Below, piece after piece: positions 5,555 to 60,183 of a DNA stretch of 64,000 nucleotides. Below the pieces are notes generated by a model that made no database searches, was not told where the DNA came from, and saw only the letters and a program-made list of their open reading frames with translations. Where the stretch lies: the NCBI GenBank assembly GCA_028753945.1, contig JAPNXP010000001.1, positions 4,268,501 to 4,332,500 on the forward strand. Direction: 5' to 3'. The position numbers were made by a program, and so were the translations under genes. The first letter of the stretch is position 1; each line of letters starts with the position of its first letter. Source of the DNA: Hexactinellida sp. DTS-2022. Lineage: Eukaryota > Porifera > Hexactinellida.

Positions 5555-8500
5555 TAAAATACTAGCTCTTTGTTCTACATAGTTTATGAGAAACCGCCTA
5601 TTGAAAATTTTATGTCGGACATTGTGGATGTGGCCAAAATGTGGATGAAAATTTTCAAAAATTTCGAACAATGTCAGATTCTCTTATAGGGCTGAAAATG
5701 AATATACCGAATATTCGTTGACTACTTTTGCAAACAACTTGACTTTGTTTTGATTGGATAGGTAGTAAATAAAAATTCCTGCATAAAGTAACTGAGTAAT
5801 AGCTAAATAGTGTCTAATGCAGTTTAGTTTTGTATTCTCTATCGTTTTAAATCATAAAATCAATTTTCAAATTTTATGTTGATGACTAGTATGAAAGTCA
5901 CCTTGTTATAACACCGTTCCCCACTTTTAAAAATAGGAATACACCACTGCTTATATCACTAAAGGTATATTAATATATACAATATTAGATCTTTATTACA
6001 CATAGTTTATGAGAAACTGCGTGTTGAAAATTTTGTGATTCAATAATTTATGTCGGACATTAACATCTAAACTCTGCAAAATGATCACAATTTATTTTAT
6101 TTACTTACGAAGCGTACCAAACTTCTACACCAGTATAAACGCATAACAACTAGTGTTTGATACAAATTTGGGATAATATCTCCACATTTTCATGAAGATG
6201 AGAGGCTTGACATGTAGTAATATTTTTATTTTGGTGCTTAAGACAAACAAGATCAAATCTCGATGCCTCCTTGGGTTGAGAACTAAATCTTTAATGACAT
6301 CTTATTATGGTATCTAGGTAAGTTTCGGAAAGGAGTCGCCTTTTAAAAAAATTATGTGTTGAATAAAATTGATAATCTTCACCTAAAATGGTTGCACCTA
6401 TTGATTATTAGCACCTTATAATTGCCTAAATCAGATATATGAGCTATTATTATATTATGCTGTATAGTCAGAAGTCTTAGACAATTTCAATATGACTTCG
6501 TAGTTTTTGTAGTATAAAAATCGAAAATTGGTCAAATTGCTTTTCTTTTGCCTCATTTGTGCTATGAGACATGGAGTGTTATGTGGAGCCAGCTTTACGC
6601 TCACTTCGACACCACTTTGAACTATCCCCAAATCACCCGTGCAAAGTAATTCGGGAACCATTCGATTTACCCCTTCTATCCACCTTCACAGCAATCGAAC
6701 CATTGGTGTTTTATGCGAACTCGCTCCCTATTAAAGTTGCCCTAAAACTCCAACAATTAATGACCTTCGGAGTGGCATTTCAAACCCCGGCTTCGCCCAA
6801 CTCCAACCCATTCCTTACCCCTTTTCAACACCTACTCGACCTTGACCTTAATGCACCGCCACTCACTAGATACCCAGTTCCTGTTTCCCACAGCGCCACT
6901 CATAGAACCTTTGCTTCTTACCTATCATCCTTCCGCAAATACATCTCCCAGTATCAATTACGTATCCTTAACACCGACCGATCTGGGGGTCTTCTTATCT
7001 TAACGAATACAGAATCCAAGTCCTCTACTCTACATATCTTCTAAACCACCAGCAGTGCCCCCTCCTGGTATTATTCCACTACGACTAAACTCCGCAGGTT
7101 ACTCTTAACCTTTGACAACAATCTCAAAGCCTCAACCACCGATGACCGACCTCCAACATTCAATTTCAAGGTGAAAACACATAAGACCTCCTTCCCCTCC
7201 TCCCACACCCCTTACACCAATATACTATATTTTGACCCTTACGCCATCTTTCCCTATGTCCGCCCGATCGCAAACCATTCATCTCAAATACCATCCTAGC
7301 TTCTAAAGTTTTACGACCACTCCTCTCTCCTATAATCTCCCAACACCAATGCTATCCGACGATGTGCATTCAGCTATAACCCAGTTATCAATCTATGGAC
7401 CCCCCGGCAGTTTTTCATTACGACATCTCAAAATTATATCCCTCAATCCCACACACCTTAGCCATCGAGGCTTTCGAACATTATTACCCTAACAACCCCG
7501 ATGAACTTGAGATCCTTAAAACCATTCTCTCCTACAACTTTTAGTCTCGGAGACCTTTATTATATATGGGATCAACTGGAATCCCTATGGGCCTCCCACT
7601 TGCTCCTGAGATCGCACGAATAGTGACAGCCTTCCAACTCGACACCCGCCTCAACATTCATCCACCAGTAGCCCTCTCTCTCTATTTTGATAACCTATAC
7701 ACTACCCATGACCCAGAAACGATCCTTGCAGTCTTTGCCCCTTTCACCCTTTTATCCGAAGAACATATCACCCTACAAGACGCTGGCTACCATTCAGAAC
7801 TAAGAGAGTTATGCCCCAACCCCTACCAACTACGAACACCAATCCCCATTCACCCACATTCTTACCACCCACACCGCCGAATTGTCGCCAAATCTTATCA
7901 TTATACCGTCCATCGTCTCTCCGCATTTTGTAGCGACCCCAACCTCGCTCTATATTCGGCGCTCTCACGATTCCTAGGAAAATTTGCGCCTAACAAGTCG
8001 ACTTCTACTCGCCCCACGACTAACCAACTCCAGCCTTATACAATTCGCCGTTTTCGCCTCGTTCCCATAATTCCCATGGCACCTATTAAGTCCCTTCCAT
8101 CCTACTTAAACCCATCAGCCATCTCTCAATTTACGTCATGTCCCGATCGCTGCGAAGTATGCGAATCATACCACCTTTTCTTCGACACCATTCTCCACCA
8201 CCCCATAATTCCATGCATGATGTATAGATTCGTCCATGCAATTTTTAACCCCAACCACCCCATGGTATACATTGGCCAAATAGGAGCTACTTCACGAACT
8301 CTCAATCAACGCCCACACAACCACCGCTTCTTAAAACACCAGGCGCACTGCCAAACCCCGGATCTACGTTGGCAGATCCTCCGACTTCTATCCCCCCCAC
8401 TTTACAACCTCAACACGAACTTCTACAGAACCCGAGAACGAATGGTCGATTACCTCCGAAGGAAACATCCCACGGTCATCTTCTCTCAAGATACCGACAC

Positions 8501-8656
8501 TTCTACGGATCTTCTACCTCTCCTTCAAACCCCCGCGGACTTTGCGCCCATAGTGCGCCTTCCTCAACCTCGAGGTCAATGTCCCGGAAAATTATTAGCC
8601 TACCTTATTATAGTGAAATTCTGATGTGCCCTAGTCGAAAGATAAATTGTTGTTAG
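5555..8656 (+). mobile_element. Penelope-like retroelement, degenerate
   Basis: A 5' non-coding region of about 1 kb is followed by the remains of an RT plus GIY-YIG polyprotein. Within the 5' region a ~75-bp stretch is repeated directly (5565-5640 and 5990-6065, 'catagtttatgagaaac'), recalling the terminal repeats of Penelope-like elements. The 5' region and first codons recur in inverted orientation at 20550-21200. The coding part (6.6-8.6 kb) is much richer in C than the flanks, as expected for a transferred or separately evolving element. Confidence 0.6.
6571..8624 (+). pseudogene. Reverse transcriptase with C-terminal GIY-YIG endonuclease (Penelope-like)
   Basis: The open part 6571-7044 (157 codons, MECYVEPALRS start) ends in LNTDRSGGLLIL, like the RT 'ADKGGGVV' block. 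7045-7565 is frame-broken but still shows KVKTHKTSFP and FPYVRPIANH, equivalent to the 'PKIHK...RPIVS' block. The part 7566-8624 (352 codons) has TGIPMGLPLAPEIARI (RT block B), LSLYFDNLYTT at the catalytic site, and a C-terminal YIGQIGATSRTLNQR block with a following R and E typical of GIY-YIG nucleases. RT joined to GIY-YIG in one protein is the hallmark of Penelope-like elements. The usual YxDD reads YFDN, so the second Asp is missing. Frame breaks and this substitution indicate a dead copy. Confidence 0.65.
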
Positions 8657-11238: not shown

Positions 11239-12103
11239 GCCATCATGTAATAGTTAATCAGTTTCCGAGAAGTGGACGCGGACAACTCTGAATTTCGAAA
11301 AACGGACAAAGGAAATGGCCCGAAAGGTATGTCTTAATATAAAGTTATCTCCAATGAACGGACAACCGGAAACTACATCTAATAATTTTCATGAGGGTAG
11401 AATCACAAATTTTAATGATAATATGTAGGGCATTAGGATCGTACGATTAGCTGAGTATACATTAACAATCAAACCAATTATCTATTAAAAAGATCGTTAA
11501 AGGATCGTGATGGATCGTAGATCCATTTCTAAATTACGATCAGTCATACTCATAGGCTATTCTATACAAGGCCTAACAGTAACCTTGAAATTATGGACTA
11601 GGGATGCACTAATAGATGGTAATATTTAACCAACCACAATATTTTAACCCATATTTCTATTTATAATTAACCACATTTTTTGTTCCAACTACCCCACTAA
11701 ATACTAAGTTTAAATCTTTACTGATTATTAGCCTCTCTTAATATTTATTTTGTTATTTTCTTGTCCACTTACTGTTCCTATTCACTTCTAACTATTAGAT
11801 TAGTTTACATTATGCCCAGCAGTTGCTCAGCCCCCGGATGCAGAAGTAACTACAGCTCAGATGATAGAGTTTCTATATTCAGGATGCCTGAACATCCACC
11901 AGAACTCAGACAAGCTTGGATACTTCACCGAGAGAATATTGATAACCTCAAGGTAGTCAACGTATGCGTGAAGCATTTTCGAGAAGAAGATGTCGAAGTT
12001 TCTCACAAGGTTCCCAATGGAGACGGAACTTTCACTGAAATACCTCGTGCAAAGCCCAAGTTGAGAGACGGCGGAGTTCCCTGTTTGCTTCCTGGTTGTC
12101 AAT

Positions 12104-12403
12104 CAGTGCTCGACAAGATGAAATTTTAATGGTGGCTAATTAAGCCACCACCTCACTTTTTCTGGTGGCTAAAGAATAAACAACGGCCGATTTAACAAAC
12201 CACTGATGAATTAACAAAGTTCTGATGCCGTAAAACAACACTAATATTAATCACGAAAGATTCCACGAAAAATATAATCTATACGAAGTCAATTAATCCA
12301 CAATTTATGGTAAATTAGTTAAGCCAACAAAGGCAAAGTTTGATGGCTCCAATAAGATTTCTGGTGGCTAACGCCACTAAACCACCTAATTTGTCGAGCA
12401 CTG
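12104..12403. mobile_element. hAT-type MITE in the P-like element 2 transposase
   Basis: The 300-bp element has ends CAGTGCTCGACAA / TTGTCGAGCACTG with near-identical 8-bp flanks (TTGTCAAT 12096-12103, TTGTCCAT 12404-12411). The interior repeats 'tggtggcta'. It ends the THAP exon frame artificially at 12129. Confidence 0.85.
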
Positions 12404-13439: not shown

Positions 13440-13666
13440 GATAGTGAAGACATAGGGAAATCACTGTCAAAGCTATGACAAAAAATATTTGGAGTGAATG
13501 AAAGTTCTTTCTGGTACCAGGGGCGGCGGTAACTGTATAACTAATCACTTTGTAACTGCGCCTCCGAGTCGTCATAGATAGCATTTGAAAAGATATAAAA
13601 TCTGGTGCGTTTGTTTGTAAATTAATTCGATCACTTGTTCATTAAAATCACTAACTTTGGAATATA

Positions 13667-14523
13667 ATGGCAATGCCATTGAAAACTCGTTCAAAAAACT
13701 TTTCACACGAAGAAATTTCAATGCTAGTGGACTTAGTTAAAGAAAACAAGTCCAAACTCTTTGGTTCATTGAGTTCATCTTTGACCTACGAAGAAAATAA
13801 CAGCATTTGGAAAGAAATCGCGGAAGCTATATCCCAGGCGCATGGAAGTTTGAGGACTAAAGAAGATGTCGCTAAGAAGTGGTCAAATGTTTTGGCAAAG
13901 CATAAGCCAATTATAAGTGAGAAGATTTCTTCAGCTTCAAAACTGGCTGCGGCTCTCCTGGAGGCCCAGGTGAAGAGCATTAAGGGAAAAGAATTGTTTG
14001 TAGGAGTTGTAGGAGGAATCGACATAAGTACCTCGTCACCAGAGGCGGAGCCAGCATTTTCAGGTAGGTGAGCTCAGGGGGGATTTCAGGGGGGGCACAC
14101 TGTACAACAATGTTATTCTAGGGGGGGGGGCAGCCTCAAAAGATGGGGGGCCATGCCCCCCCCCTGGCACTCAGTCCTCTGAGTGATTCAGATATGTCAA
14201 TTTCTGAAGAGATGAAGCCTCCTAGGAAGCAGAAATTTTTTGATGAGACGAGTGATCCAATTGACCAAACAAAGAAGCTACTATTGGAGAACGAACAAGT
14301 GAAAATAACTCTTTTAAGAAGCATTGACCAAAAGATGGATTACATGGTAGATCTCTTGGGACAGATAGTTGCTGTGCAGAATAAGTTGCTAGCCAACACG
14401 ACACCTCAAATGCACCCACAATATGGATCAAATCCTCCAACGTTTCTCCCACCACTTCCCCCTCAAGTGTACCCTTCTACATTTATGCAACAACATTTTC
14501 CCTGCGGCAGCAAGGACGTGTAA
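13667..14523 (+). pseudogene. Harbinger Myb/SANT-like DNA-binding protein
   Basis: The N-terminal part, 13667-14071, reads MAMPLKTRSKNFSHEEISML with three spaced aromatic/Trp helices (IWKEIAEAI, KKWSNVLAKHK), the trihelix/Myb-SANT-like domain that brings Harbinger nuclease to DNA. The C-terminal part, up to 14523, has a coiled-coil-like KKLLLENEQVKITLLRS and a Pro-rich tail. Between them (about 14045-14160) sits a G/C-run-rich insert beginning GAGGCGGAGCCAG that looks like a small MITE, so the gene is split. The alternative that this insert is an intron is less likely. The partner nuclease is convergent on the other strand. Confidence 0.68.
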
Positions 14524-14620: not shown

Positions 14621-15654
14621 TTAATCAAAGTAATCTGTAACCACAGACTGTCGTACTATATTTCCGGAATGTGTTGTTTCATCAGGAGCGGCAATAATCT
14701 CATCCTCTTTAGTAACAAAATTTGCTTCCCCTTGTAAGTCATGATCAATGCAGATATTATGCAATACCATTGTTGCAACTGCCAATCTACATACGCGTTC
14801 CGGTGAATAGCAGAGTGTTCCTCCTGTTTTATCCATTGATCGCCATCTACTTTTCCATATTCCAAAAGCGCATTCAATATTTTTTATTGTAAAAAAGGCT
14901 CGATTGTATCGTCTCTGGCCTGGAGTTACTGGAGAATGTATTGGAGTGAGAAGGTTCGGTGTTAGTGGGTACCCGCTATCGCCAAGAAACCAACCATTAA
15001 CTATTGGTATTTCTCCACATAATATTTTTGATTTATACCAGACTGCCTCCATATGATGCATCGTGAGTGCTTCCTGGCCATTTGGCGACGATGTTGATGA
15101 AATTCCATTTACTATCACATATCGCTTGAATATTGCTAGAGTGAAAGTTCTTCCTATTCACAAAAATATCTTCATTCTTTGGAGGTGCCAATGGGTACAT
15201 GCGTACCATCAATACAGCCTAGAACCTTGGGGAAGCAGTGTCTTTCAGCAAACCTTTGTTGGTTTAGCAATTGCTCAGATACGCTAGGGAACACTATGAA
15301 TTATTTAGCATAGAAGCATAATGCGTCTGTTACGGTACGAATACACCTGGACACTGATGGCTGGGATATTCCATGTGATGAAGAGACTACATTTGGAAAG
15401 AACCAGTAGCCAGAAACTGTAACGAGACAGCTAATTGAGTGGCAGCAGGAATAGCATATGATCGGAATGTTGATCGATGCAGGAAGGTTGAGACTTCTCT
15501 TCGAGCTGAATGAAATATCCCTTGTAATTCTGTATCGTGAGATAAACTCGATTTCATCATACACATCTAAAGGATTTAATCTATCTCGAAATACTCTCTG
15601 CCCTGCTAAACTCCGAGAAGAATAGAGATCGAGTACAAAGAGAGCAGCTCCCAT
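14621..15654 (-). pseudogene. HARBI1-type Harbinger nuclease (frameshifted)
   Basis: DDE-superfamily nuclease. The N-terminal part at 15654-15301 contains SFSSKRSLN and HGISQPSVSRCIRTVTDAL, a helix-turn-helix-like region. The catalytic part shows [10 protein letters not shown] at ~15210 (first Asp), LGDSGYPLTPNLLTPI at ~14975 (second Asp) and RYNRAF...ECAFGIWKSRW at ~14880 (Glu), the expected D-D-E order. The stretch 14621-15118 is one open frame ending in a stop. Stops and a frameshift at 15120-15300 separate it from the N-terminal part, so it is inactive. Confidence 0.85.
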
Positions 15655-29985: not shown

Positions 29986-30868
29986 CAAGAATTATTGATA
30001 TTCACGAGCCCTTCGGTCTCAGTCGCTTCGCGACGGATCACTGTCACAAAAGTCGCTTCGAGACTTTTGTTCGTTCGTATTAGACACTACGCAACACAAT
30101 TAATTAACGGCCGCTTCGCGGCCTTACTCTCCTTAAATATCACTCTTAAATAAGTTAAACCTGTGACTTGTAAATTACACGTACTCAATTCAGTATGCTG
30201 CTATATGGGACCCAAGTATGTCAACTAATTAATTAATTCATTCATGCTATTTCCTAACTCAGGATTTACTGTATAGTAAATTGTTTGATTATTATTTAAT
30301 TTGCTGCATCATCAATTTGTAATTTATTATGCAGAAGATATAGGTATAGTAAATAGTTGAATTACATTGATAGTAATATTATGCTACTTATGCGATTGAC
30401 GTAAGCTAAATACATCACGAATATAAATAGACTTGATAGAAGCCAAACTGGAAAAATCAGGTATGCAATTCGGAAAAAATGTAGGTGAAGATTAAATCAT
30501 CAAACCTCAATATATGCAATGACGCAGCAATAGGAGGTTACATTTTCTAGAGACATGCAACACATTATGTTTCATAATGTGACAAAAATGTTTGATGATC
30601 GAATCAAAATGTAAGAGCTGAATCCAAATTAGTTCCTACGTGACGTCACAATCCCATAAATCGGTTTACGTGTGTCTCATTTCATGTCTTGTCATAAAAA
30701 ATTGAGGCGAATCGGATAAAAACTGAGAGTTATTCCCAAATAAGTGCATTTATGACGTCATAATCCGTTATTTTGTTTCAAAAACAATAGATCGTTGTCG
30801 CAATACAAAATTACCCCTGCATATAAATTTTCAGCTTTCTAGAACTCGTAGTCTTTCCAATTAATTCT

Positions 30869-31164
<296 letters not shown>

Positions 31165-31938
31165 CAATTCCGCTTGTTAATATACGAGCCCTTCGTTCTC
31201 GGTCGCTTCGCGACTTTTGTTCGTTCGTGTTAGGCACTACGCGATACAATTAACGGCCGCTTCGCGGCCTTCCCTCTCAAAAGCTCGAATAAAAATAATA
31301 CTAAAAGAAAAACAGGCAATAGAATAGACAAATGATTGATTGGTTAAATGAATTAATTTTCAATCAATCAAATTGGAGACTCAGAAAATATTTCTATTAT
31401 GCACAATCTATTTATACTAATTGATGAAATCTGCTAATCCATAATAACAAACCCTCGAATTTAATTGACTAACATATTTTGTCACCTTCAAATGTGAATA
31501 TTTCTCTTCAAAAACCAATAGATCGTTGTCGCAGTACAAAATTAACCGGTCGCCTGTATACAAATTTTCAGCTTTCTAGGACTCGTAGTCTTTCCAATCA
31601 ATTCTGGACAAACACACAAACACACAGACAACAATTGCGCTTATAATATACGAGCCCTTCGGTCTCGGTCGCTTCGCGACGGATCACTCTCTCACAAAAG
31701 TCGCTTCGCGACTTTTGTTTGTTCGTGTTACACACTACACAGCACAATTTATTAACGGCCGCTTCGCGGCCTCACTTTCCTCAAATATCACTCATATATA
31801 TCTGTGATTTGTAAAATAAAGGTACTCAATTCAGTATGCTGCTATTTGGGACCCAAGTATGTCAACTAATCAATTCATTAATTCATGTTATTTACTAACC
31901 CAGGATTTACTGCATAGTAAATTTTTGATTATTATTTA

Positions 31939-34750: not shown

Positions 34751-34814
34751 ATAACGTGATAACTTGTCGAGGTGTGATAAATTTTTAGTGGAAACCTCAA
34801 CTTGTTGGCGGGTG

Positions 34815-35489
34815 TGGAATTCTTCGTCAAATCATAGTGTCATTTCACCAACATTCTCAGATTTGTCTGAAACTTTGCGAGTCGAGAGTACTTAGCTGTT
34901 CATTGTATTCCTGCAAGTTTCTAAAATTTCCGCAATGCTGTTCTCAAATTATGACGTCACGAAATTTGGCATTTTCATCATTTTTTTAAAACTTTCAAGA
35001 ATACTATTTGACTGCCATATTTCAAACTGCTATATTTTTGTCAGTTTTAATGCTAGCAATATGATCTTTACACTACACACAGTTTATAATTCGTAGATTC
35101 CTATGAATATAATAGTTATTTGATTTATGTCATTATATCATTTATTTTTTGGACTGGAACTCACTCATGCTATGTAACCGGAACTATGACGTAACTCTAG
35201 GGGGAATGTTGGGAAGTGAAATTTATTTTTCTAACACATTCCTTATTCGACTCTTTCAATATGGTGAAAGTTTCAAAAATTTCCCATTTTTCCCCTCTTA
35301 GATATTAAACACTTTATGTCACTAACTCAATTTTACAGTTAGCAAATTGGAAATATATTTTCCCAAACTTTCCAAAATTAATAATTTGATTTATCAAAAC
35401 TAAATTTGCCGTTTTTTTATTCTTGGCAGTGATACAATTCTTTTGTAGTTACTAAATCTGGCAAAGGTATGTATATAATTGAATCAATT
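34815..35489. repeat. Left terminal inverted repeat of the intact transposon
   Basis: 675 bp, starting TGGAATTCTTCGTCAAATC. Differences from the right copy that I could find are a C/T difference at a CpG near 34879 and single-T length changes near 35288 and 35341. It contains TGACGTCA at 34952. Confidence 0.93.
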
Positions 35490-35714
35490 ACTAACCATAT
35501 CTCAAACTTTATTTTTGTGATTGGTTGTTTTTCAAATAAATGTACATATCACGTATTTACTTATATTAATATACTGAGTTCTGATGATATTACTATCAAG
35601 GTAGCTAAAACAGGTGCAAATACGTAATAATAAGAATTATATATATTTAATTACAAAGGAATTATTATTTTTATGAAGAAACAAGGAAAAATATTGTTGA
35701 GATTGATATAAACC

Positions 35715-38700
35715 TTATTTCTTTGATTGTAAGCGTGTTGTCATCAAATCACTAATAGATTTGGCATCAATTAAAGAAATCTTGTATTTTCGTGCAGCTT
35801 TTGATGATGGAGTTGGTGCCGAAATCTTGCAAAGGATGTCATTATTCGGTATATAGCAATTATCTTCTTTTGGAGGCCAGAAAAAGCAATTCATAGGTCT
35901 CCCTGGTCCTTTTGGGTGCATAAATTTAATCTGTAGATCACCTTCTTCCTCGCACACCATTTCAACTATCCCTATATACCAGTCATGGTCATATATACAG
36001 GCGACATAATCACCGATATTCAGGTATGAAACCTCATGATATTCTATAATATTATAGTTTTTCGCTCTTCTTTGTTTTGAGAAATCAAAAGTCATGGTAA
36101 AATCTACTTGTCTACTGTACCTCTTAGCTCCAATTAGTGTTGTATCCAATGGAACAAATTGATGATAACTACGTGTTCCAGGCAAAGCCTTGATATCTAA
36201 ATTTCTAAGAGAATATTGTATTGAAAGTAAAAAATAAGTAGAACGAATTTATAAGTTGGGAATTAATTTGCATACAACATACCTGGCTTCAAATGTCTTT
36301 CTTAGTTCAGTCAGCTGATATTGAGGTATATAAAAGAATTTAATGGTTGAGAGGCTAGTGGTAGTTGAGCAAAATTCAAACATCTCCAATGATGTTAATA
36401 TCTGATTAACTCTCGGTCTTTGTAAACTGGCTCTTGCAGTTACTCTCTTTACAGTACCTCCTATAGCATCACAAGGTGATTTCCCGTGAGAAGTTGCAAA
36501 AAAGTTCCATTCTGCTTCAATTCCAAATTCTGCTTTATGTTGACACAGGTTATAAAAATTCTTCTTATTTTTATATTGAGCTGCACACCCATCACTAAAA
36601 TATATGACTTTTTCGATACATGGTAATATTCCCCTCAAAAATTCTGTAAATACTTGTTGGATTTTATATACCATGATGACATCGTGTTCTGTATCATCAG
36701 AAATGAAGCAGAAAGATTTGTTGCATAGAATATCTACAGTATAATGTAAGGAAACTTGCATTCGAATAATTTATTTTAATCGAAGTAATGTTCGACTCAA
36801 TTACAAATGCAAAAACTCATATTAAAATGTTACCATTTTGTTTATAATAGATGACAATTGGATGCAACGTGGCTTGCGAATTATTCCAATGAAATCCTTG
36901 AACTTCATCTTGAACAACAAAGGAATAGTTCTCAGCAAAGTCAACAAGAATAATAGCTGTATCATCTTCAAGGTTATTCTTCAGTTCTTTACAATAAGAA
37001 CTCTGAACTTTGGATAAGAATGAGTGTGACGTCAATTTCTCGATGGAAGCAATAAGAACATCATAAAACTTATCTAATGGCAATGTGTGTGTCTCTAAGG
37101 TCGTTCTATCAGTGCTCTCCCATTGTTTATACTCAATTAGTGCCTAGAATGTAAAATACACTAAGTTCAAATGGGAGGAATATAATACAAGTATTTGTAT
37201 AGTTGTCTTCCACCGAATATAATAAATTATGTCACATGCTCAATAAAGAGTATTCCAAAATTGTTATATAAATAAATAGCAATACCTGTTCATCTTTTTC
37301 TTTCACTATCGTAGTTAGATATTGTCTGAGGTTGCCGTCTCCAGGACATTTCTCACATCGATGGATCATGCATTCATGATTATCAAGAGAACACACCAAC
37401 TTCGACATCAATGTTTTGTATGAGTCGGGAATGTCTAGAGCATCGATTAGAAGAATACTGTTTTGGTGGATAGAGCATACACATACTGAGTGAGTTCCAC
37501 ATGAGTCAGCAAGTACGCACCACTTTGGGCGTAAAGTGCAGAACTTAGAAAAAGAAATCTAGAAAGATTAAGTTGGATTAACGTCAATATAATGATTATC
37601 TCTGTACTACAGTGAAATTCTATTAGCGCATCCTATTTGTAGAATTGTCTAATTCGAAATTTATTGATGAATGGTGCACAACATAACGAACTACATATGA
37701 CCACACATTGTTTTATTACATCACACATATTACGCATTCACAGCAATTAGTGAAAAAGTATCCTGACCTTTTTATCTGGATGACTTCTTTTAAATTCTCC
37801 ATGTAATTCTTTTAAATTTGACAAAATTAATCTCTTTTGGACGTGAACATTTTTCGCGATACTAACATAATCCTTCTTTCCTGGCATCTGACGTGTGAAT
37901 TCGTCATCTTCGTAACAATATTCAACAGCTCTGGTAATTTCTTCAGGCAACTTTCTCCCTATTACAGATTGTTTTCATTTAACCAGATGGAAGTAAGTAG
38001 GTGTATCGTAAAATCTTATATCTTACCATTTTTAGATTCAACTTCTCCAAGGATACCCTTATTTTGCAATAATTCCCGTGAGAGATCTACCAAGTATAGT
38101 GAAGTACCAAAATACTTAGATACAGCTTCACGAGAGCAATTCTGCGGGGCTAAAGTAAGTAACTGCGTTTGCTTACGAGTATCAGAATGAGAAATTTCAT
38201 TCTTGATCAAATACATTAGACGATCATATTCTTCAGCTTTTTCCTCAACTGTTAAGTTTCCGATATTGCTGCTCGTAGTTGAATATGAAATTTCTTGACC
38301 TTCCTCTATAGACTAATCTCAGGATTGTGTTAAAATCGAATTTAGAAAATTGTATACAGGGTTGCCATGGGTTTGGGAATTACCATGGGATCCCCATACG
38401 CATAGAAATGGGATCGAAATGGGAATCAGATTATCCCCTATGGGGATCCCCATATGGAACTTACAATCTATAGAAGATATTCAAATTCTGAAAGCGAACC
38501 ATTTCGAAAAACGAATGGAAACCCATATGATGATCCCCACAAAATTATTGTGGGATTGAGATGGGAATAGAAATTCCACTCCCACGGCAACCCTGAATTC
38601 GTATATACTCACCTCTAAACAATCTTGCAATCTTGTTAATTTTTTTTTTAATTCAATTTGTCTTCCGTGAAATTGCTTACCATGTTTATTTACTGGTGAA

Positions 38701-39686
38701 ATACCAAGGGCAATAGGGAGTTCATCTATAACAATTTCTAGCATATCCTAGATAAATTAATCAAATACATTAATTACAATAACCATAATACGGTGAAAAT
38801 TAAATGGGTAAATTTGAGATGGTCAACTTGGGGATTCAAAAAAGCACTATTATACAGTAGAGCAGTGGTTCTCAACATGTGGGTCGCGAAATAAAATATT
38901 CGAGAAAACCTCTGCAGTATAGTGTATACTCAACACTAATTAATAATTTCATTTATCTGTTACTTATTATACTACTAGTTGTCACAAATAGTATAAATAT
39001 TTGTGAAAACTTGGAGTATATTAATAAGTTTGCAGTATCCGCTACCTCCAGAGTCCATACTCAATAGATTTTGGACTATAAAATCAATCAGTTTAAATGG
39101 AATACCTGAGTTAATCTTGTATCAATCGTTTGAATATCAATATCCTGATCTGTTATATTCGAATCTGTATATCCTGGTACTCTAATTGTTGTATTTGGCG
39201 AATGAAATGATTTAGACATTCTATATTCTCTAGGTTCTTTCAAAATATCCGATAATTGAGAATAACAACGGGAGCATACTTTCCGCCCAGGCACAACTGA
39301 TACATCAAAACTTGACAAATTCATTGCATTACATTGAGTAATAGTGATTGTACCTAATTTTGTATAATATACAATTACATACGTATATTAGCATAATAGT
39401 TAATAATAAACTCACCTTTGCAATTCTGGTTATTGGTACTGTGCTTATTAAATGGGTCACAACAATATGGATTTAATTTAGAATATTTATCCAAATATAT
39501 TTTTTGATGATGAAGACAGATTGTCTTTAAGTTACGCTTACGAACTCCTGTTCTCCAAATTAACAAGTCAACGTCCTTAGTTGAAAGATCAGTTATTAAC
39601 AATAGAGCACATTTTCCATGAGTGTAAATTGTGCTATGACAATTAGAGTCACCAATCTCACCAAATGAACAATTAGTTAAAGACAT
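35715..39686 (-). CDS. Putative DDE-type transposase, 891 residues, nine exons
   Basis: Exons (minus strand): 39686-39416, 39353-39106, 38747-38613, 38312-38027, 37958-37768, 37558-37286, 37143-36834, 36754-36283, 36204-35715. All borders are GT-AG, all phases agree, and the sum is 2676 nt with no internal stop. Residues ~1-90 include CLHHQKIYLDKY and CCDPFNKH. Residues ~91-173 include GRKVCSRCYSQL. Exon 6 has Cys/His blocks (CGTHSVCVCSIHQN, CMIHRCEKCPG), likely zinc-binding. Candidate catalytic acids lie in LVDFAENYSF (~D536), YFSDGCAAQYKN (~D626) and SHGKSPCDAIGGTVKR (~D667), in an RNase H-like order. The C-terminal exon has YLNIGDYVACIYDHDWYIGI, resembling an SH3/Tudor-type fold. The role as transposase is inferred from the flanking inverted ends. 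The start codon is the first Met after the right terminal repeat. Confidence 0.8.
38357..38595. mobile_element. hAT-type MITE in an intron of the intact transposon gene
   Basis: 239 bp, ends CAGGGTTGCC / GGCAACCCTG, with 'gggatccccat' words inside. The flanks AATTGTATA / AATTCGTATA look like a duplication with one indel. It sits between exons 3 and 4, ending 17 bp from the exon 3 donor, and leaves the reading frame intact. Confidence 0.8.
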
Positions 39687-39854
39687 TGAAGAGAATAAAG
39701 TATTTAGAAATCTTGATTGCAGAATGAATATTTGAATACAATAATATGAATATAACGTGTATATATTTACCTACAATATCATTTCCTTTAAAGTATAAAT
39801 ACATACCATAGTTACCAGGTTGTAGTTAAGATATCGTCAACACAATTGTTCAGC

Positions 39855-40529
39855 AATTGATTCAATTATATACATACCTTTGCCAGATTTAGTAACTACA
39901 AAAGAATTGTATCACTGCCAAGAATAAAAAAACGGCAAATTTAGTTTTGATAAATCAAATTATTAATTTTGGAAAGTTTGGGAAAATATATTTCCAATTT
40001 GCTAAACTGTAAAATTGAGTTAGTGACATAAAGTGTTTAATATCTAAGAGGGGAAAATGGGAAATTTTTGAAACTTTCACCATATTGAAAGAGTCGAATA
40101 AGGAATGTGTTAGAAAAATAAATTTCACTTCCCAACATTCCCCCTAGAGTTACGTCATAGTTCCGGTTACATAGCATGAGTGAGTTCCAGTCCAAAAAAT
40201 AAATGATATAATGACATAAATCAAATAACTATTATATTCATAGGAATCTACGAATTATAAACTGTGTGTAGTGTAAAGATCATATTGCTAGCATTAAAAC
40301 TGACAAAAATATAGCAGTTTGAAATATGGCAGTCAAATAGTATTCTTGAAAGTTTTAAAAAAATGATGAAAATGCCAAATTTCGTGACGTCATAATTTGA
40401 GAACAGCATTGCGGAAATTTTAGAAACTTGCAGGAATACAATGAACAGCTAAGTACTCTCGACTCACAAAGTTTCAGACAAATCTGAGAATGTTGGTGAA
40501 ATGACACTATGATTTGACGAAGAATTCCA
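39855..40529. repeat. Right terminal inverted repeat of the intact transposon
   Basis: 675 bp, reverse complement of 34815-35489. Its inner end lies 168 bp upstream of the transposase start codon, so it probably contains the promoter. It contains TGACGTCA at 40385. Confidence 0.93.
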
Positions 40530-41341
40530 CGGGTGCCAAAAGTTACCCCTATATGCCAAAAATCACATTTGGAAACCGTCCAGTTTCTTCAATCAACTCG
40601 GAACATACAAAAAATATAGCACACATACGCACATACACCCAGCCTTGTGTTTTAATAGTATAGATTTTTTTAGTACACGTGTTGCTCGTATTAACGAGGT
40701 TCCAATGTATAATGTAATTCAGAGTGATGTTAAATATTTTGTATTTATAGAATTCTCAAAACCAAAATGGAACTACACATTTGAAATAATTCAAAAGTAC
40801 ATTTATAGGCGTAGTTTGTGTTCGAGTCATAATAAATTCCAGATGAAACTTAGTATTCTATCTAACTTGGTTTGAAATCATTTAGAAGCATTTTGAATAT
40901 CATAAATATTTGCCTATACCTAAGTGATAAGCCACTGTGTGTCGCTCCTAGAATCATTTTTTAGCTATGGGACAAAAAATTGTAAATCCAAAAATACGTT
41001 TGAAAATTCGAAATTCAATAATCCGGCCAAGAGATCCACAATAATTCCACAGCCAGAAGCCTACCGGGAAATTTCAGAACTAGTCATTTACGGTCTTAGC
41101 AGAGAGGCGAGAATAAAAACAAACAATGAAGGGATTTCAAAACTGGCCACATTCCATTGTATTCGGTTCCATAAAGACAGTTACTATATACTAGCTAAGT
41201 TCGCTAAGTTTTAGTCACAAAGAAGTAAATAATAATTTTTAATAATTTAATTAATGGGCTTGGATTTTTAAACATGAGTTGGCATGCAAAATCAACAATT
41301 TCCATTAATATCAATATTCAAATACAATTTAATAATATTAA

Positions 41342-53600: not shown

Positions 53601-56600
53601 TCGGCCATGACAGCTCGCCAAAGTAACCACGTCCGATAGTGTTCGCCGGACGTGTTTCCCATAAAAACTTGTTCAAATTAAGTTATATCGTCTTTTTATT
53701 GTTGAATTCGGTTTCGAAGTAAAATTTCCGATAATTTGATATATCACATGACCATATTTGGAAGAATTTTTCCATAGCAACGCTGGAATGTATCAGGAAT
53801 GTGTCAAAAATTCCATTCTCCAATTGTGTCCTTACCCAATCGAGTGACCCCTCTTTCGACTCCACTCAACTACCTGAGTATACTTATGCTCACACCGACC
53901 CTGTAAAACGTGATTTGATAAAATTATTCGATATTTATGGTAAATCACGGTGAATATTGAATAATTTTATCATATGTACAAATTTTGGTGCTTTTATCAA
54001 AAAAATGAACAATTATATGGTTGTGCCGCTGCACTACTACTCGATCTCACAAGTTGAATCAATTTAATCATCACAAGTATAGAAACAATAGAATTAGATT
54101 TAAGACTTTAATTGAACTGAAGTGTATGTAAACAAAGGAAATTTGAAACTCAATTGTGGCACATTCCATAACAACAAAAGATTATGTGATTAGATTTATT
54201 TCTGCTTAGAATATTCTTGCACAATCGATACATGACATATTTAATTCTAATTGATTTGCTTGTGTTTAACTTATAGAGACGGTTCCAATTAGATTATTGG
54301 GGTTATCGAGTGCGCTGAATTCAAATATGATATTGAAATTCAATTTAGATTAATAATTATTGCAAATAATTCAGCTAATTTATTTTGCACTAATTACCTA
54401 AATTTCATTAATCTCAGAAATAATATAAGATAGAAACAAACTTCCAATTTATCAATTGATCCTTATACAACGTAACACCTCTACAAATGGGTATTGATAC
54501 CTTGAGGTGATTATGACATCGATAAAAAAATGTGTTTTTACAATTTTGAGAATTATTTAATTCGAATGGTTTGGTTGGTGTTGGGTGGTCACCCAACACA
54601 CACATAAAATTGCTCAATCATCACCTATTAAATTCAACTCAACCTTGAATATCTCTAAAATTAAGTGAGCTAAATGGAAACTTCCACCACTTTAAGGGTC
54701 GAATCCTTCTGAAACACCTTTCTGAAATAATTTAGCACCTTCACAGTGATGATGACATGGCGGAAAAAATCCAAAATAGCGCTGTGCCAAAGCATGTTCC
54801 TTTGGAGGCACTATCAATAACCCACTACCAAAATATAGTGCCACCAAAGGAGCATGTGTCGGCACAGCTGCAATTTTGGAATTTGTTTTCTCCGTAGCCG
54901 GTGCCCTGGCCACACCTTTATAGTTGATGAGCTGAAACTTTGCATGTAGGTGCGATGTTACCGTCTAATTTGCACCTGGGGTAACGATTTTTTATCTACA
55001 AATTTTTGACACATTTTTAACACCTTCCAAAGAATTTTTGGACCATAACTCAAAAGATGTTATACTAAAGTAACTAAACCCTCAATTTTTATTTCACCAT
55101 TGAATTCACCATAAAATTCTGCGTCTGATTTAAGAAGACAAATTTTAATAATGGGTTTAATTCATGCCATAAATGGAGGTTGAAATTCACATTGTTTATT
55201 AACACTTCAGTTCAATTGAAAGTGTTAAATCGAATTCTATTGTTTCAACTTGTAATAATTATATTGAATTAACTTGTTAAATCTTACTCTATTGATTCAA
55301 CTCGCGATAATTATATTGATTTAACTTATAAATTCCAGCTGGCTTCTATTTAACTGTAGTATTACTATACGATGGATTAAATTAAATAATATAATACATG
55401 TATAAGGAATTTGGTCACTTAACTCACTCACCGTGGATAACATTGCTAAATAAATAACTAATAATATAATATATTATCAATACATAATGAATGAATGGCA
55501 TTAAACTCAAGATCGTTTATGATAGAAACAAACTTCAAATTTATATACCCTTCCTTCTGACTCGGACCAATTAACTAATGGTTCTTGACACCTTGAGGCG
55601 TTGATGACTTGGCGGAAAAAATCCAAAATTGCAGCTGTGCCGACAGCATGTTCCTTTGGAGGCACTATCAATAAACCACCACCAAAAAATAGTGCCACCA
55701 AAGGAACATGCGTGGCACAACTGCAAATTTGGATTTTTAGATTTGTAATTAAATTTTGAGATTGTGATTTTTTGAAAGTTTTTCAATGTAACAATGATAT
55801 CATAACTTGAATACCTGAAGCCATGGAAAAATCTGATTCCACGAATAGATTTTTTAGGTAGGATCATCCAAATGTCAATAATATAGTTCATTGCACTATA
55901 TGTGACCAAACAACTACAGTCAACTCCCGTTATAACGAAGTGCTCGGGACCGTAGTTTCATTTCGGTAAATGCGGAGTTCGTTATAAGCGGAGTTCGTTA
56001 TAAGCGGGATTCGATCTTAAAAGAGTTCATTCAGAGGCGACGCTAGGGTGGGGCCAGGTGGGACCTGTGCCCCACCTGAATTTAAGTGTTCCCCACCTCA
56101 TTAATGTAAGTGTGCCCCAGTTTAATAGCCTGTGCCCCACCAGTTGCAGCTGTCTGGCGCCGCCACTGAGTTCATTACAAGCTGATTATGTTATAACCGG
56201 AGTTCGTTATTTAGTTCGACACGAACCTATTTGGTGAAAACAACTTTTTCGGAAAAACACGTTTTATTAGGTGAAATAGAATTTCATAACTCGCCCCGAT
56301 CATGATTTTCCGAAAATAGAAAGTTCGACTCCACTGCCTAAACTGTAAAAAATATTCCAGTCGTACTCGTAATAGTAAGTCTTAACAAGAATCTTCGAAG
56401 AAGAATTTTCTATTTTCATTCAAATATGAGTCAATTTTAAAACCCTAATCCGTGGCTACATTAAAAATTTACATCCAGATATATAACATAATACAATCAA
56501 AGAGAACCTACCTCCACAATAAAAACGCGTTTCCTAGAAGCGGAAGCTGACTGTTTAAGATAATCAATACATTGTTGTATAACATTCAAAGCAGTATCAG

Positions 56601-59600
56601 AACCAAGCGTGTACTCTGTACCAGGAACATTATTACTAATTGTTGAAGGGATCAGAACAATTGGTATCCTGAAATTTGGATAGGTATCTCTAACAGACTC
56701 AAGCCTAGAAAGACTGAGATATCCTTCAAAACCTCCAATAATGATGAGAAATCGGATATTAAATATATTTAGATTTGTAGCTATATCAGAAAAATTATTC
56801 TTGTCTGGTAGCTGACGATTTGTACCCAACATTGAGCCTCCACAAGCCATCCAGTTAAATAGGTCATTTTTATCAATCTGATGCAAATCTCCTTTAGCAA
56901 AGCCTTCAAATCCATTATGAACAACATAAATCGAATGACCATAACTAATGGCAAGTCTAGAAATTGCATAAGTAACAGAATTTTGTCCACCTGCGGGAGC
57001 ACCAATATGAAGAATACATATATTAATCGATTCAGCTGATTTGATCTTAAGTAATGGTGATTGAAGTCGCAAATAAAGATCTAAGTGTTTGTGAAATAGT
57101 GTGCCTCTAAGTTCTAATAACTGGGAAAATAATAATTCATTGAATAAAATTAGGGGAAAATATACAAAGGAATGTAAAATAATGTGATAATAAGTTGAAT
57201 CAGGGTTCTCGCTAGGCCTCTATCAATAGGTACATGCCCTTCTTCAAAGCTATTGTACACTTTATTCACATGTCGTAAGTGGGCATGTACCCTTTGAGTC
57301 AATATTATTATTTGAAGGTTTCATAAAATCATTGACATTAAGTAACATCTCACTCTCATGTACCTTTACATAAAAAATCCTGGCGAGAACCCTGAGTTGA
57401 ATTAAATCGATATTCTAGTAAATAAAGAGTTTTCAACACAGAGTATCACAGGTCAGTATTGGAAGGATAATTATCCTAGTAACTATCAATTAATAGAATT
57501 AAAATAATCCAGGGGTCAATCCAAGATATAATTAGGCAAATATTTCTGAGCGCATAGTTTGAGACTGAGCTCATAAATATTGTCACAGTATAAAATATTT
57601 TGTTATTTTCATGATTTTCACTTTTAATCTGGGACAGTTTTATACAAAAATGTAACCACCTACTGCTGCTTCACTGGAAAAAAAGAGTGAGAGAGCGATT
57701 CGTCGCGAAATGACCGAGAAAAAAGGGCTAGTGTATATTAATGATACGGTCATGTTGACACACATTCTTATCGATAAGCTTACTAATTATTATAATAGTT
57801 AAAATGTCACTTTATGTTATTTGACTATTTGATGCATATTTTATCGATAATTCCGTTGGAAGAGTTAAGACAGAGCAACCAAGAAGCGGTTTGTGTGTGG
57901 TTGTGTTCTGGCGCAAAGCGACCTAGCAAACGAAGCGCGCAAGTATATATAACAGTAAACCTTTAGAAAGTGAACACACTGGGGACCAGCCAAAACCTTC
58001 ACGGTGTTCACTTTTCATGATTTATCATAACGTGTGTCTAAAACAATGGGGAAATTTTGGGACCGAGAAAAAGTGTTCATATTTTGGAGTTGTTCATTTC
58101 TTGGAGCTGCACTTTTGGAGGTTTTACTATATATATAAATATAAATATGTGTATCTAAAAAGAGTCCCAAAATCTCAGCCAGTGTCTTTAAGTGTGTTTT
58201 AACTTTTATGGTTATTATCCAGCAAAAGTGTATTTACTCGGCAAAATGAGCCATATGATACGCTTCTGTTTTGCCTAGGTAAAACCCTAGATCTTGGGAC
58301 AAAAAACTTGCTTTTGGGACAGTTTTTATATATATATATATATACAAGTATATATATGTATATATTCGTTTGTATGTTCGAGTTGATTGAAAAAACTGGA
58401 CCGTTTCTAAATCTGAATTTTGGCATATATGGGTTACTTTTGGCCCACGAAATTAAATTGCGGTAACCACTCGAAATATTCCATTCTTGCCAAGTTATGA
58501 CTCCATTGTCACATTTTGATATTCTTTAAAATTAACTAAATCGCTCATTAATCGCACCCTCTATGATATAAAAATATGAAAATTAAATCGGTACCTGCGA
58601 GGTTCGCTTGCTAAATCGCTTTCCTAGAGAAACAACCACACACCAACCGCTTTGCGCTAGGTGTGCGGCGAATTAATTCTTATCGCGTCTTAGCGCGTTA
58701 TCCGTAAATAACAATATAAAATTACTTATTACGTCCTCACTAGATACCGAGTAAGCATATTGATAATGATGCAGACATATTGGTCACACTTAATTATTAA
58801 TGTGCTTACTCATATCCAGGGATGGCGGGAGGGTGGGGCCAGGTGGGGCATGTGCTCTACCTAATGCCCCACCTGTGATACCGCGCTAGCGCGGTCACTG
58901 CTCATATCGAATGATGAGACAATCATTAAAATTCCACATTGATAAATTTGACTAAATCCAATTCGTATATTGCAATGCTGAATCCAGTTATGCTAATATT
59001 GTAAAGAAAAAAGAGCGAGAAAAAACATCAATTTCTCCCTTTTTCGATAGTATTGCAGGTAATCTTAAACAGAGAAAAAATGCTAATTTCCAATATGTAT
59101 TCAAATTCGTACGAACAAGAGGGCCTTCCATCAGTATTTATAAGTATAAATCCACTTGTATATGTTTATTCATTGGTGTATGTAGGTTTGTAGGACCCTA
59201 TCAACAATGCCTCATAGCCCAATGTCACTACCAATCTACAACCACCAAATACAAGAGCTCTACGAGGGTGAGAAGGCCCCCCCCCCCCCCGAATTTGCAA
59301 TCTCTGACCCGCCCCACTAGCAACACACTGTGATTAACCAGCACAAACCGGCACTAAATTAACTAGCATATAGTTTTCGAAATATATCGTGGGTATCGTG
59401 GAGTTTTAATCGGTTAATAGAAGATTGCTGTGACTAAAAATTCTCCCTAGTAATACACCAAATATCGTATTCAGATGATGACTCTTCAAATCAACTTACT
59501 TTAAAAATCACAGCACTCTTGTAAAGGGTTCAAAATGCTTAAGCACCCAACCAGTTGCTAATGAATGCAATCGGCAGCAATCAATTGAATTGATATACAA

Positions 59601-60183
59601 TCTTTCTGAAAATTTCCTTGCATTACCTAAATTTATGGAAATTTTGCATCATTAGTTTGTTTGCCCAGAATTTATGAGATACAATATGCTACACAAATCT
59701 GAAAGTTCGCATACAGGTGTAATTATACGCAAACAACGATCTATTATTGGTTTTGTAAAATTTTTGACAAACCTTAGTGTAGCAACGTTTCTGGATAGCT
59801 TCATTACTTGCACGAGTTCTCATCACGGTATCCAATAACGGAAGATAGATAATTTTATTACCTTGTAAAGCTATAATAATAGGCTTTGCAGGCTCATTAT
59901 TTCGAAAAACAAAATTTGCAGCTTCTGCACCTAAACGTGAACTAAATATTCTATCGTGAGCTGAGGGTCTACCACCTCGCTGAACATGACCCAAAACAGT
60001 AATACGCGTATCGTAATCAAGACGATCAACGATAACCTGTTTTACATAAGAGGGTAATAGTGAATTGTTATTTTCGTCCTTCGCTCCTTCAGCAATAATA
60101 ATAATATTGAACCGCTGGCCATTCTTTCGAGATTCGACAAGTAATCGACACAGGTTATCTTCCCAGCCTGGACAAAGTCCTAT
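41342..60183 (-). CDS. PFK: 6-phosphofructokinase, C-terminal four exons (gene continues upstream)
   Basis: Glycolytic enzyme of the cytosol, which transfers phosphate from ATP to fructose 6-phosphate. Exons 60183-59773, 57120-56512, 45344-45080 and 41673-41342 join in phase (0, 0, 1) to about 536 residues plus a stop. The order matches animal PFK of about 780 residues: N-half GHVQRGGRPSAHDR, the inter-half linker, then C-half INICILHIGAPAGGQNSVTY, IIIGGFEGYLSL, STISNNVPGTEYTLGSDTAL, GGFSGYLATMSALAGGAD, GHLQQGGSPSPIDR and a short variable tail. The first ~250 residues (GGDGS region and N-half active site) are not in the window. Introns of 2.65, 11.2 and 3.4 kb are packed with repeats. No lesion was seen in the exons, and the gene looks functional. 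Confidence 0.93.
42440..42490. repeat. Palindromic satellite motif, decayed
   Basis: 'agtgattttaatactggcct' then 'gtagtagtcggcacagtaa'. A single decayed copy. Confidence 0.6.
42745..42835. repeat. Palindromic satellite motif
   Basis: 'ggcagtgatttcaatactgg', 'tatactatagtataatcggc', preceded by another 'gtcggcaca'. Confidence 0.7.
43632..44188. mobile_element. Tc1/mariner-type non-autonomous element
   Basis: 557 bp, ends CACTTCCTGGCCAAAAGTAT and ATACTTTGGCCAGGCAGTG, flanked by TA (43630-43631, 44189-44190). The CTGGCCAAAAGTAT terminus is typical of Tc1-like elements. The interior repeats 'gccac..gtgcc' words. No transposase remains. Confidence 0.8.
44227..44645. mobile_element. hAT-type element with GCCCGC-rich interior
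   Basis: 419 bp, ends CTAGAGTGCGCCCCG / CGGGTCGCACCCTAG, with near-identical 8-bp flanks (CTTATAAA, CTTATGAA). Many 'ggcccg' words. Related in style to 10173-10780. Confidence 0.75.
44725..44775 (+). repeat. End fragment of hairpin repeat family B
   Basis: 'gagaagcgaccaagaccga' followed by 'agggctcgtat' is the terminal motif of the repeats at 29990-32745, in inverted orientation. Confidence 0.55.
45080..45344 (-). CDS. PFK: PFK exon: GGFSGYLATM block
   Basis: 265 nt. It begins VQGGFSGYLATMSALAGG after a CAATAG acceptor, continues with AYIPEVPFNVFSI, GVVVRNENANPHYTTSF and ends in NILG at CTGG/GTGAAT (phase 1). It joins the previous exon as VFIVE-VQGGFSGYLATM, matching the animal protein. Confidence 0.95.
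46148..46420 (+). pseudogene. THAP exon remnant, cut by a MITE
   Basis: The nucleotide sequence aligns with the THAP exon of element 1: TGTTCTGCCCCTAG near 46151, then after the MITE GIPILHIPSGLQ and KYKRFLHRD. The THAP Cys pair and the 'GIPxxxxP' loop are recognisable. It is frame-broken, with no catalytic part in the fragment. Confidence 0.65.
46190..46331. mobile_element. hAT-type MITE in the THAP remnant
   Basis: About 142 bp, CAGGGGCGCCGC to GCTACGCCTGT, flanked by TCATAGTG / GCATAGTG. Contains 'ggtcggccattgccggacc', an imperfect palindrome. Confidence 0.72.
46970..47088. repeat. Hairpin MITE, copy 1
   Basis: Arms contain 'aattgcagctgtgccgac' and the inverse ending 'cacagctgcaat', with 'ggcactatc' in both arms and a ~30-nt loop. 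A decayed copy. Confidence 0.8.
47808..47922. repeat. Hairpin MITE, copy 2
   Basis: Left arm 'aatcgcagctgtgccggcac'; the right arm is decayed ('tatagtattactgcgatt'). Confidence 0.7.
48745..48806. repeat. Palindromic satellite motif
   Basis: 'ggcagtgatttcaatactgg' then 'gccactatactagtatagta' and 'gtcggcacagtaa', immediately before hairpin MITE copy 3. Confidence 0.75.
48808..48931. repeat. Hairpin MITE, copy 3
   Basis: 'aatccaaaattgcagctgtg' left arm and 'ctgtcggcacagatgcaatt' right arm. Confidence 0.82.
49098..49295. repeat. Three tandem copies of the palindromic satellite motif
   Basis: Units of about 66-70 bp, each 'actgtgccgactatactata', 'gtatagtggcccagt', 'cactgcctttatt', separated by ATT/TTT tracts. 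The core ACTATACTATAGTATAGT is a perfect palindrome. Confidence 0.88.
50599..50717. repeat. Hairpin MITE, copy 4
   Basis: 'aatccaaaattgcatcctgt' and its inverse. The variant 'catcctgtg' appears in both arms, i.e. the arms changed together. Confidence 0.88.
51433..51552. repeat. Hairpin MITE, copy 5
   Basis: 'attgcagcctgcgccgacag' left arm; the right arm ends 'ggcacagggtgcaatttt'. Confidence 0.88.
52863..52982. repeat. Hairpin MITE, copy 6
   Basis: Stems of about 45 bp with few mismatches; 'ccaaaattgcagctgtgccg' and its inverse. Confidence 0.9.
52985..54765. repeat. Large inverted repeat bounded by hairpin MITEs 6 and 7
   Basis: The left arm 52985-53440 (e.g. 'ttgcaataattattaatcta') is inverted at about 54150-54600. 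An inner pair, 53500-53545 and 53985-54022 ('caccaaaatttgtaca'), is also inverted. The centre is near 53790. No coding sequence. It could be a foldback element or two units fused head to head. Confidence 0.72.
54768..54882. repeat. Hairpin MITE, copy 7
   Basis: 'atccaaaatagcgctgtgcc' left arm; the right arm 'gtcggcacagctgcaatttt' is better preserved. Confidence 0.85.
55620..55738. repeat. Hairpin MITE, copy 8
   Basis: 'atccaaaattgcagctgtgc' left arm, near-perfect stem with 'aaaaaatagtgcc' at the loop. Confidence 0.88.
55918..56031. repeat. Tigger/pogo-like end fragment
   Basis: 'cagtcaactcccgttataac' preceded by TA, followed by three 'gcggagttcgttataag' units. Related sequence continues after the MITE (56177-56220). 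The far end was not resolved. Confidence 0.55.
56032..56168. mobile_element. hAT-type MITE (GGCGGCG family)
   Basis: 137 bp, CAGAGGCGACG to CGCCGCCACTG, with an exact 8-bp duplication AGTTCATT (56024-56031, 56169-56176). Same family as 1000-1124. Confidence 0.9.
56512..57120 (-). CDS. PFK: PFK exon: linker and start of the C-terminal (allosteric) half
   Basis: 609 nt, 203 codons. It begins LLELRGTLFHKHLDLY after TTTTCCCAG and continues through INICILHIGAPAGGQ, VVHNGFEGFAKG, IIIGGFEGYLSLSRL, PSTISNNVPGTEYTLGSDTA and KRVFIVE, ending at GAG/GTAGGT. The block order is that of the animal PFK C-terminal half, where activators and inhibitors bind. Confidence 0.95.
57201..57394. mobile_element. hAT-type MITE
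   Basis: 194 bp, CAGGGTTCTCGC / GCGAGAACCCTG, with an exact 8-bp duplication AGTTGAAT (57193-57200, 57395-57402). It lies in the PFK intron near the exon boundary at 57120. Confidence 0.9.
57880..57945 (+). repeat. Helitron-like A-family hairpin end, fragment
   Basis: 'gtgtgtggttgtgttctggc' then 'gcaaagcgacctagc' and 'gaagcgcgcaag', the CTAG-side end of the A family with decay. Confidence 0.6.
58325..58690 (-). repeat. Helitron-like A-family copy, diverged
   Basis: The TATATA tract, 'gtatgttcgagttgattga', 'ccaaaagtaacc'-like body and 'ctttgcgctaggtgtg' hairpin remnant follow the A-family order but are heavily diverged. Confidence 0.5.
58817..58900. mobile_element. hAT-type MITE (GGCGGCG family)
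   Basis: 84 bp, CAGGGATGGCGGGAGGG to GCGCGGTCACTG, with an exact 8-bp duplication CTCATATC (58809-58816, 58901-58908). Confidence 0.9.
59773..60183 (-). CDS. PFK: PFK exon: end of the N-terminal half
   Basis: 411 nt, phase 0 in and out. It begins IGLCPGWEDNLCRLL after an acceptor (TTTAG) at 60184 and contains NIIIIAEGAKDENN, then LGHVQRGGRPSAHDRIFSSR, the conserved block near the end of each PFK half. It ends IQKRCYTK at a GTTTGT donor. An upstream exon must supply the preceding residues. Confidence 0.95.

Follow-up and report, generated by a model that had tools for sequence, protein, structure and literature searches.

The stretch of DNA analysed here, 64,000 nucleotides (nt) from Hexactinellida sp. 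DTS-2022 (hereafter the window, C1:4268501-4332500), harbors a 5.7-kb DNA transposon with long terminal inverted repeats and a nine-exon transposase gene on the minus strand (Table 1). Searches of the host genome covered 112.4 Mb in 18 contigs (C1 etc.). The element is likely a member of the Sola superfamily of cut-and-paste transposons, complete and recently mobile, and it probably represents a new, well-preserved family of a known kind and not a new type. The main results are a corrected length of the target-site duplication and a corrected exon 8; otherwise this is an ordinary, well-preserved transposon.

The Element and Its Copies

The left end of the element, used as a DNA query with repeat counts as lower bounds, matched at least 11 places in the host genome: both ends of three full elements, a partial copy on C12 (88%) and four places with weak matches (70-80%). 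The two additional full copies (C3:889861-895577 and C3:2766980-2772697) are 99.3-99.4% identical to the window element, and the three pairwise comparisons over 5.7 kb gave 30, 38 and 30 substitutions with 2, 3 and 1 gap columns, respectively. All three copies keep the GT/AG splice sites and an open frame of 884 amino acids (aa), as judged with the corrected exon 8 described below. The main inverted arms are 98-99% complementary, and the two ends of each copy differ from one another at 3 (window copy), 8 and 8 positions in the first 676 alignment columns. Recent movement of the element is indicated by the small divergence among the three full copies; the family was probably mobile until recently and may still be active. 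The original prediction of an intact transposon with a multi-exon gene and signs of recent movement is thus borne out by three near-identical full copies with open frames. The long inverted ends that it placed at 34815-40529 are equally real, their extent being one base wider on each side (676 instead of 675 bp). Between the window copy and the other two, the changed codons were synonymous and non-synonymous in the ratios 4:4 and 3:8, which is too few for judging selection among the copies. An older relative lies in pieces between C11:6957204 and 6966006.

Exact Termini and Target-Site Duplication

In all three full copies a G lies directly outside TGGAATTC and a C directly outside GAATTCCA, and the C12 remnant likewise carries a C outside its end. 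Additionally, a 20-base end pattern beginning GTGG was found exactly at seven termini in the host genome and at 16 more places with 3 mismatches each, whereas the reversed control matched at 8 places altogether. Because the flanking G and C are fixed in the copies and the 20-base pattern is exact at these seven termini, the terminus is read as GTGG...CCAC. With these ends, the duplications of the three full copies are GGGT in the window, GAGA and ATAA on C3. The 6-bp duplication CGGGTG that had been reported is therefore replaced by one of 4 bp, as determined by flank comparison with the C3 copies, and the 6-bp reading fails in both of them (GGAGAG/CGAGAA and CATAAG/CATAAA). CGGGTG arises because each GGGT is lengthened by one base of the element and one base that agrees by chance, an extension whose probability we estimate ourselves at about 1/16. 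Further copies with the same ends, which the prediction had anticipated, do exist (the two on C3), with duplications of 4 and not 6 bp.

A 4-bp duplication was present in 8/8 insertions for which both ends were read, belonging to about four families, and five of the eight are non-palindromic and hence unambiguous. The count omits two relatives of the C16 family (C1:7970399 and C11:8839448) in which a left end and no right end was found, and ends were sought for a minority of the 94 or more places that the protein matched in the genome. The leaning of the original prediction to IS3EU, Dada or Polinton falls with the 6-bp duplication: the CGGGTG repeat at the window insertion is the sole point in favor of these superfamilies, it is contradicted by the C3 copies and by the 8/8 count, and such an assignment is hardly credible. 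Dada elements have a 6-7-bp duplication and insert into multicopy small RNA genes, whereas the duplication here is of 4 bp and neither a tRNA nor an Rfam match at gathering scores was found in the window. Polintons carry polymerase and capsid genes; here the duplication is of 4 bp, the element is 5.7 kb long and its longest frame outside the transposase exons has 119 aa (no homology search was made on it). IS3EU elements show 6-bp duplications and, in complete families, TA..TA ends, a definition from which the 4-bp duplication and the GTGG..CCAC ends depart (PMC10045372). One chance-extended duplication can thus misdirect a classification to the wrong superfamily.

The duplication length by itself would also suit another superfamily with duplications of about 4 bp, such as Academ, Chapaev, Ginger or Kolobok. 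This assignment is very improbable, since the protein has no Pfam match and its relatives gave scattered one-member matches only. Kolobok moreover is described as duplicating TTAA specifically (PMC9587614), whereas the targets here are GGGT, GAGA, ATAA, TAAT, AATA, TATA and CTAG.

The Transposase Gene and Its Product

The predicted gene of nine exons, 2676 nt and 891 aa, without internal stop, was reproduced exactly; its consistent frame stands, and the start of exon 8 probably does not. In the C16 relative, a block ending in YYREN is followed by a block starting with ILCNKS, and ILCN is also where three other relatives have their frames pass into the shared block. The relatives have no counterpart to VSLHYTV, seven residues of the 891-aa model, and an acceptor CTGTAG sits exactly where the ILCN block would begin. 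Because the relatives' blocks enter at ILCN and this acceptor is present there, exon 8 probably begins at 36733 rather than 36754, with a loss of seven residues and the frame kept (2655 nt, 884 aa).

The whole transposase gave no Pfam match at E up to 1; Pfam does name other transposase pieces of the same window (DDE_Tnp_4, TNP-like RNase H). Sequence and profile searches of PDB yielded weak matches only (3, 1 and 4 sequences with E no higher than 10), the best of them, at E 0.038, being the zinc-associated domain of Serendipity delta, which is not convincing. When 11 members of an alignment of relatives (A1) were searched, 12 Pfam families appeared, each in one member only, with DUF3881 as the best (4.6e-05). 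A literature search by protein motif strings gave nothing, and one by end sequences listed titles unrelated to transposons. The description of the transposase as little described thus holds for Pfam and PDB and not beyond them, since published Sola features fit. Proteins with these motifs are known from animal genomes and may already be filed in Repbase.

In an alignment of the window protein with its C17 and C7 relatives, the acidic residues D536, D584, D619, E646 and D660 are invariant, among others, as is a cluster of cysteines and histidines (C384, C391, H400, C403, C405, H408, C433, C440, C445 and C448). By a crude propensity calculation on these families, D536 closes one strand and D619 closes a later one, while D660 precedes a helix. 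In the RNase H order, D1 belongs to the first strand, D2 is located at the fourth strand and D/E in the fourth helix, and an RNase H fold is stated for Sola also (PMC8230255). The blocks VDFAENY, FSDG..QYKN and GK..CDAIGGTVKR had been taken for the acidic residues of an RNase H-like nuclease; they do hold invariant acids in the right order. D536, D619 and D660 are the candidate triad of a putative RNase H core, and the C/H-rich segments (rich in cysteine and histidine) are putative DNA-binding parts. For the proposed Tudor/SH3-like tail, the whole-protein Pfam search gave no match, and no search was made on the tail alone.

By analogy with other DDE/D transposases, the spliced 884-aa protein would bind both long inverted ends via its C/H-rich segments and pair them. 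Excision at the GTGG termini would then be carried out by an RNase H-type core whose DDD active site comprises D536, D619 and D660, and the 3' ends would be joined to target strands 4 bp apart, so that repair of the staggered cut would leave the 4-bp duplication. The ends, the duplication and the coding capacity are observed directly in the element. Three near-identical full copies with exact ends offer a clean substrate for testing a Sola-type active site and its 4-bp cut; no such experiment was met in the cited papers, and no dedicated search for one was made.

Relatives in the Same Genome

A protein search of the host genome, to which the eukaryotic search for relatives was confined, gave at least 94 matches to the transposase (51 of 252 candidates were scored). 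Five relatives with both ends are listed in Table 1, of which the C7 and C11 elements look like one family. The termini are alike across families (GTGGAATTC, GGGGAATTCC, GGGTTATTCC/GGGTTATTAC and GGGTCATTCC), and their inverted repeats measure about 0.6-0.85 kb. The C17 and C8 copies are 99.6% identical, with inverted ends 99.7% identical over 706 bp and differing in the outer ~40 bp; together they make up another family of this kind that has moved recently.

Over 775 codons (stops left out), the window and C16 genes differ at 221 first, 161 second and 392 third positions, which by the Nei-Gojobori method corresponds to a non-synonymous divergence (dN) of 0.29 and a synonymous divergence (dS) of 1.94, with a ratio of 0.15 and dS near saturation. 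This pattern of codon change indicates purifying selection, by which the transposase has been kept functional across the divergence of the two families. The C16 homology is interrupted near 8/8 intron positions of the window gene and also near residues 413-420, and its third block shows a stop at its start; because of this extra break and this stop, intactness of the C16 gene is not claimed. The C7 frame is uninterrupted (861 aa, C7:2147604-2150144), the single stop counted in its match appearing to be the one that ends the frame, and the C17 and C8 elements have 755-aa frames with one interruption near the N-terminus. Related transposase genes that are uninterrupted or have one or about eight interruptions may represent a case of intron gain or loss. 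It is distinctly unlikely that they form a DDD superfamily of their own, outside Sola and without a Pfam family, in which a branch with about eight introns (window and C16) stands beside branches with one or none; if true, it would offer a natural example of introns gained or lost within an active transposon.

Beyond the host genome, none of 16 pattern-matched stretches in viral contigs was confirmed with the exon 8 query, nor any of 73 with a second alignment (A2) as the query; the same alignment gave 80 stretches in bacterial and archaeal genome contigs, none confirmed, and no relative was found in phage records.

Table 1. Features of the window and related elements of the host genome (positions are those of the window unless a contig is named).
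Feature	Position	Strand	Remarks
Complete transposon GTGGAATTC...GAATTCCAC	34814..40530	gene on -	5717 bp; termini common to 3 full copies
Left target-site duplication GGGT	34810..34813		length from comparison with two C3 copies
Right target-site duplication GGGT	40531..40534		flank comparison
Left terminal inverted repeat	34814..35489	+	676 bp; 3 differences vs right arm
Right terminal inverted repeat	39855..40530	-	676 bp; arm-to-arm comparison
Exon 1	39416..39686	-	ATG start, C/H-rich N-terminal segment (ICLHH..CC..H)
Exon 2	39106..39353	-	PGRKVCSRC
Exon 3	38613..38747	-	
Exon 4	38027..38312	-	
Exon 5	37768..37958	-	
Exon 6	37286..37558	-	invariant C/H cluster (SKFC..RPKWC..HSVCVCxxHQN..C..C..CxxCPG)
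Exon 7	36834..37143	-	candidate first catalytic block, by conservation
D536 codon (exon 7)	36942-36940	-	candidate, by conservation
Exon 8	36283..36733	-	probable corrected acceptor CTGTAG/AT (earlier 36754); candidate second and third catalytic blocks
D619 codon (exon 8)	36593-36591	-	candidate, by conservation
D660 codon (exon 8)	36470-36468	-	candidate, by conservation
Exon 9	35715..36204	-	C-terminal part (conserved YDxxWxIGI...WP..D.C..P..DI) and stop
Nested hAT-like miniature element CAGGGTTGCC...GGCAACCCTG	38357..38595	+	239 bp; intron 3, 3/3 copies
TNP-like RNase H piece	2606-2995		Pfam
THAP domain piece	11725-12126		Pfam
Myb/SANT piece	13655-14068		Pfam
DDE_Tnp_4 piece	14624-15157	-	Pfam
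C16 relative	C16:2049095-2053762		60% identical (469/775 codons); ends GGGGAATTCC; duplication TATA
C7 relative	C7:2146199-2151192		about 42% identical; ends GGGTTATTCC; duplication TATA
C11 relative	C11:11876010-11880975		ends GGGTTATTAC and GGGTTATTCC; duplication CTAG
C17 relative	C17:332911-338713		about 42% identical; ends GGGTCATTCC; duplication TAAT
C8 relative	C8:556313-562128		ends GGGTCATTCC; duplication AATA

Assignment to the Sola Superfamily

The founding study of Sola is reportedly that of Bao et al. 2009, with Sola1, Sola2 and Sola3. Within Sola, the group Sola2 is our guess; it presumably carries this protein signature. By their published description, Sola elements encode a DDD transposase and are flanked by duplications of 4 bp; their ends are 11-1124 bp long and most are 2-9 kb in size (PMC10741241). 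The window element resembles them in its 4-bp duplication, and in its end length (676 bp) and size (5717 bp), both within the published ranges. A candidate DDD triad may agree as well: its residues are invariant in three families and in suitable order by the crude propensity calculation, D584 and E646 being invariant too. Sola2 elements of Dictyostelium and Polysphondylium likewise make 4-bp duplications, and the Sola2 transposase of Dictyostelium has 888 aa compared to 884 aa here; they differ in their short ends of 12-21 bp, their AT-rich targets and the Fanzor genes that they carry (PMC3627910), the longest frame outside the transposase exons of the present element being the 119-aa one mentioned above.

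Several points weigh against the Sola assignment. Membership rests on anatomy, because the comparison was made with a published description and not with a named Sola protein or by transposase homology, and other superfamilies can leave 4-bp duplications as well. The short ends (12-21 bp) and AT-rich targets of the Sola2 elements in PMC3627910 contrast with the GGGT insertion here, and three of the eight duplications (TATA twice and CTAG) are palindromes that might instead be assigned to the inverted repeat. Regarding the protein, no Pfam or PDB match backs the RNase H fold, the propensity calculation assigns strand to part of the expected first helix, and the candidate triad is no more invariant than D584 and E646. 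A separate, unnamed DDD superfamily outside Sola, whose members make 4-bp duplications and combine long inverted ends with a C/H-rich transposase, would accord with this descriptive basis and with a protein for which even permissive cut-offs in Pfam and PDB brought up nothing convincing, though Pfam recognises other transposase pieces of the window. Such a superfamily is nevertheless unlikely, since those features of the Sola description that lend themselves to checking are present, the DDD pattern only tentatively so.

Nested and Neighbouring Features

For the first ~100 bp of the miniature element in intron 3, the genome holds at least 37 further matches at 84-90%; the miniature element is presumably of hAT type and rides along with the larger transposon. 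In intron 2, a CAGTGGTTCTCAAC..GTGGGTCGCG motif (window 38863-38900) is reminiscent of hAT ends, and a DNA search with 38820-39080 found the three element copies only.

Elsewhere in the window, the Myb/SANT and DDE_Tnp_4 pieces are perhaps parts of one Harbinger-type element. A 359-aa frame at 7545-8621 has a C-terminal part that by eye resembles a GIY-YIG nuclease (YIGQIGATSRTLNQR), with no match in Pfam, and is perhaps a Penelope-like element. Host phosphofructokinase exons lie on the minus strand at 56497-60183, recognised by Pfam at 59692-60183 and by eye only at 56497-57219, and a long run of CA/GT dinucleotide repeats occupies 30852-31253.

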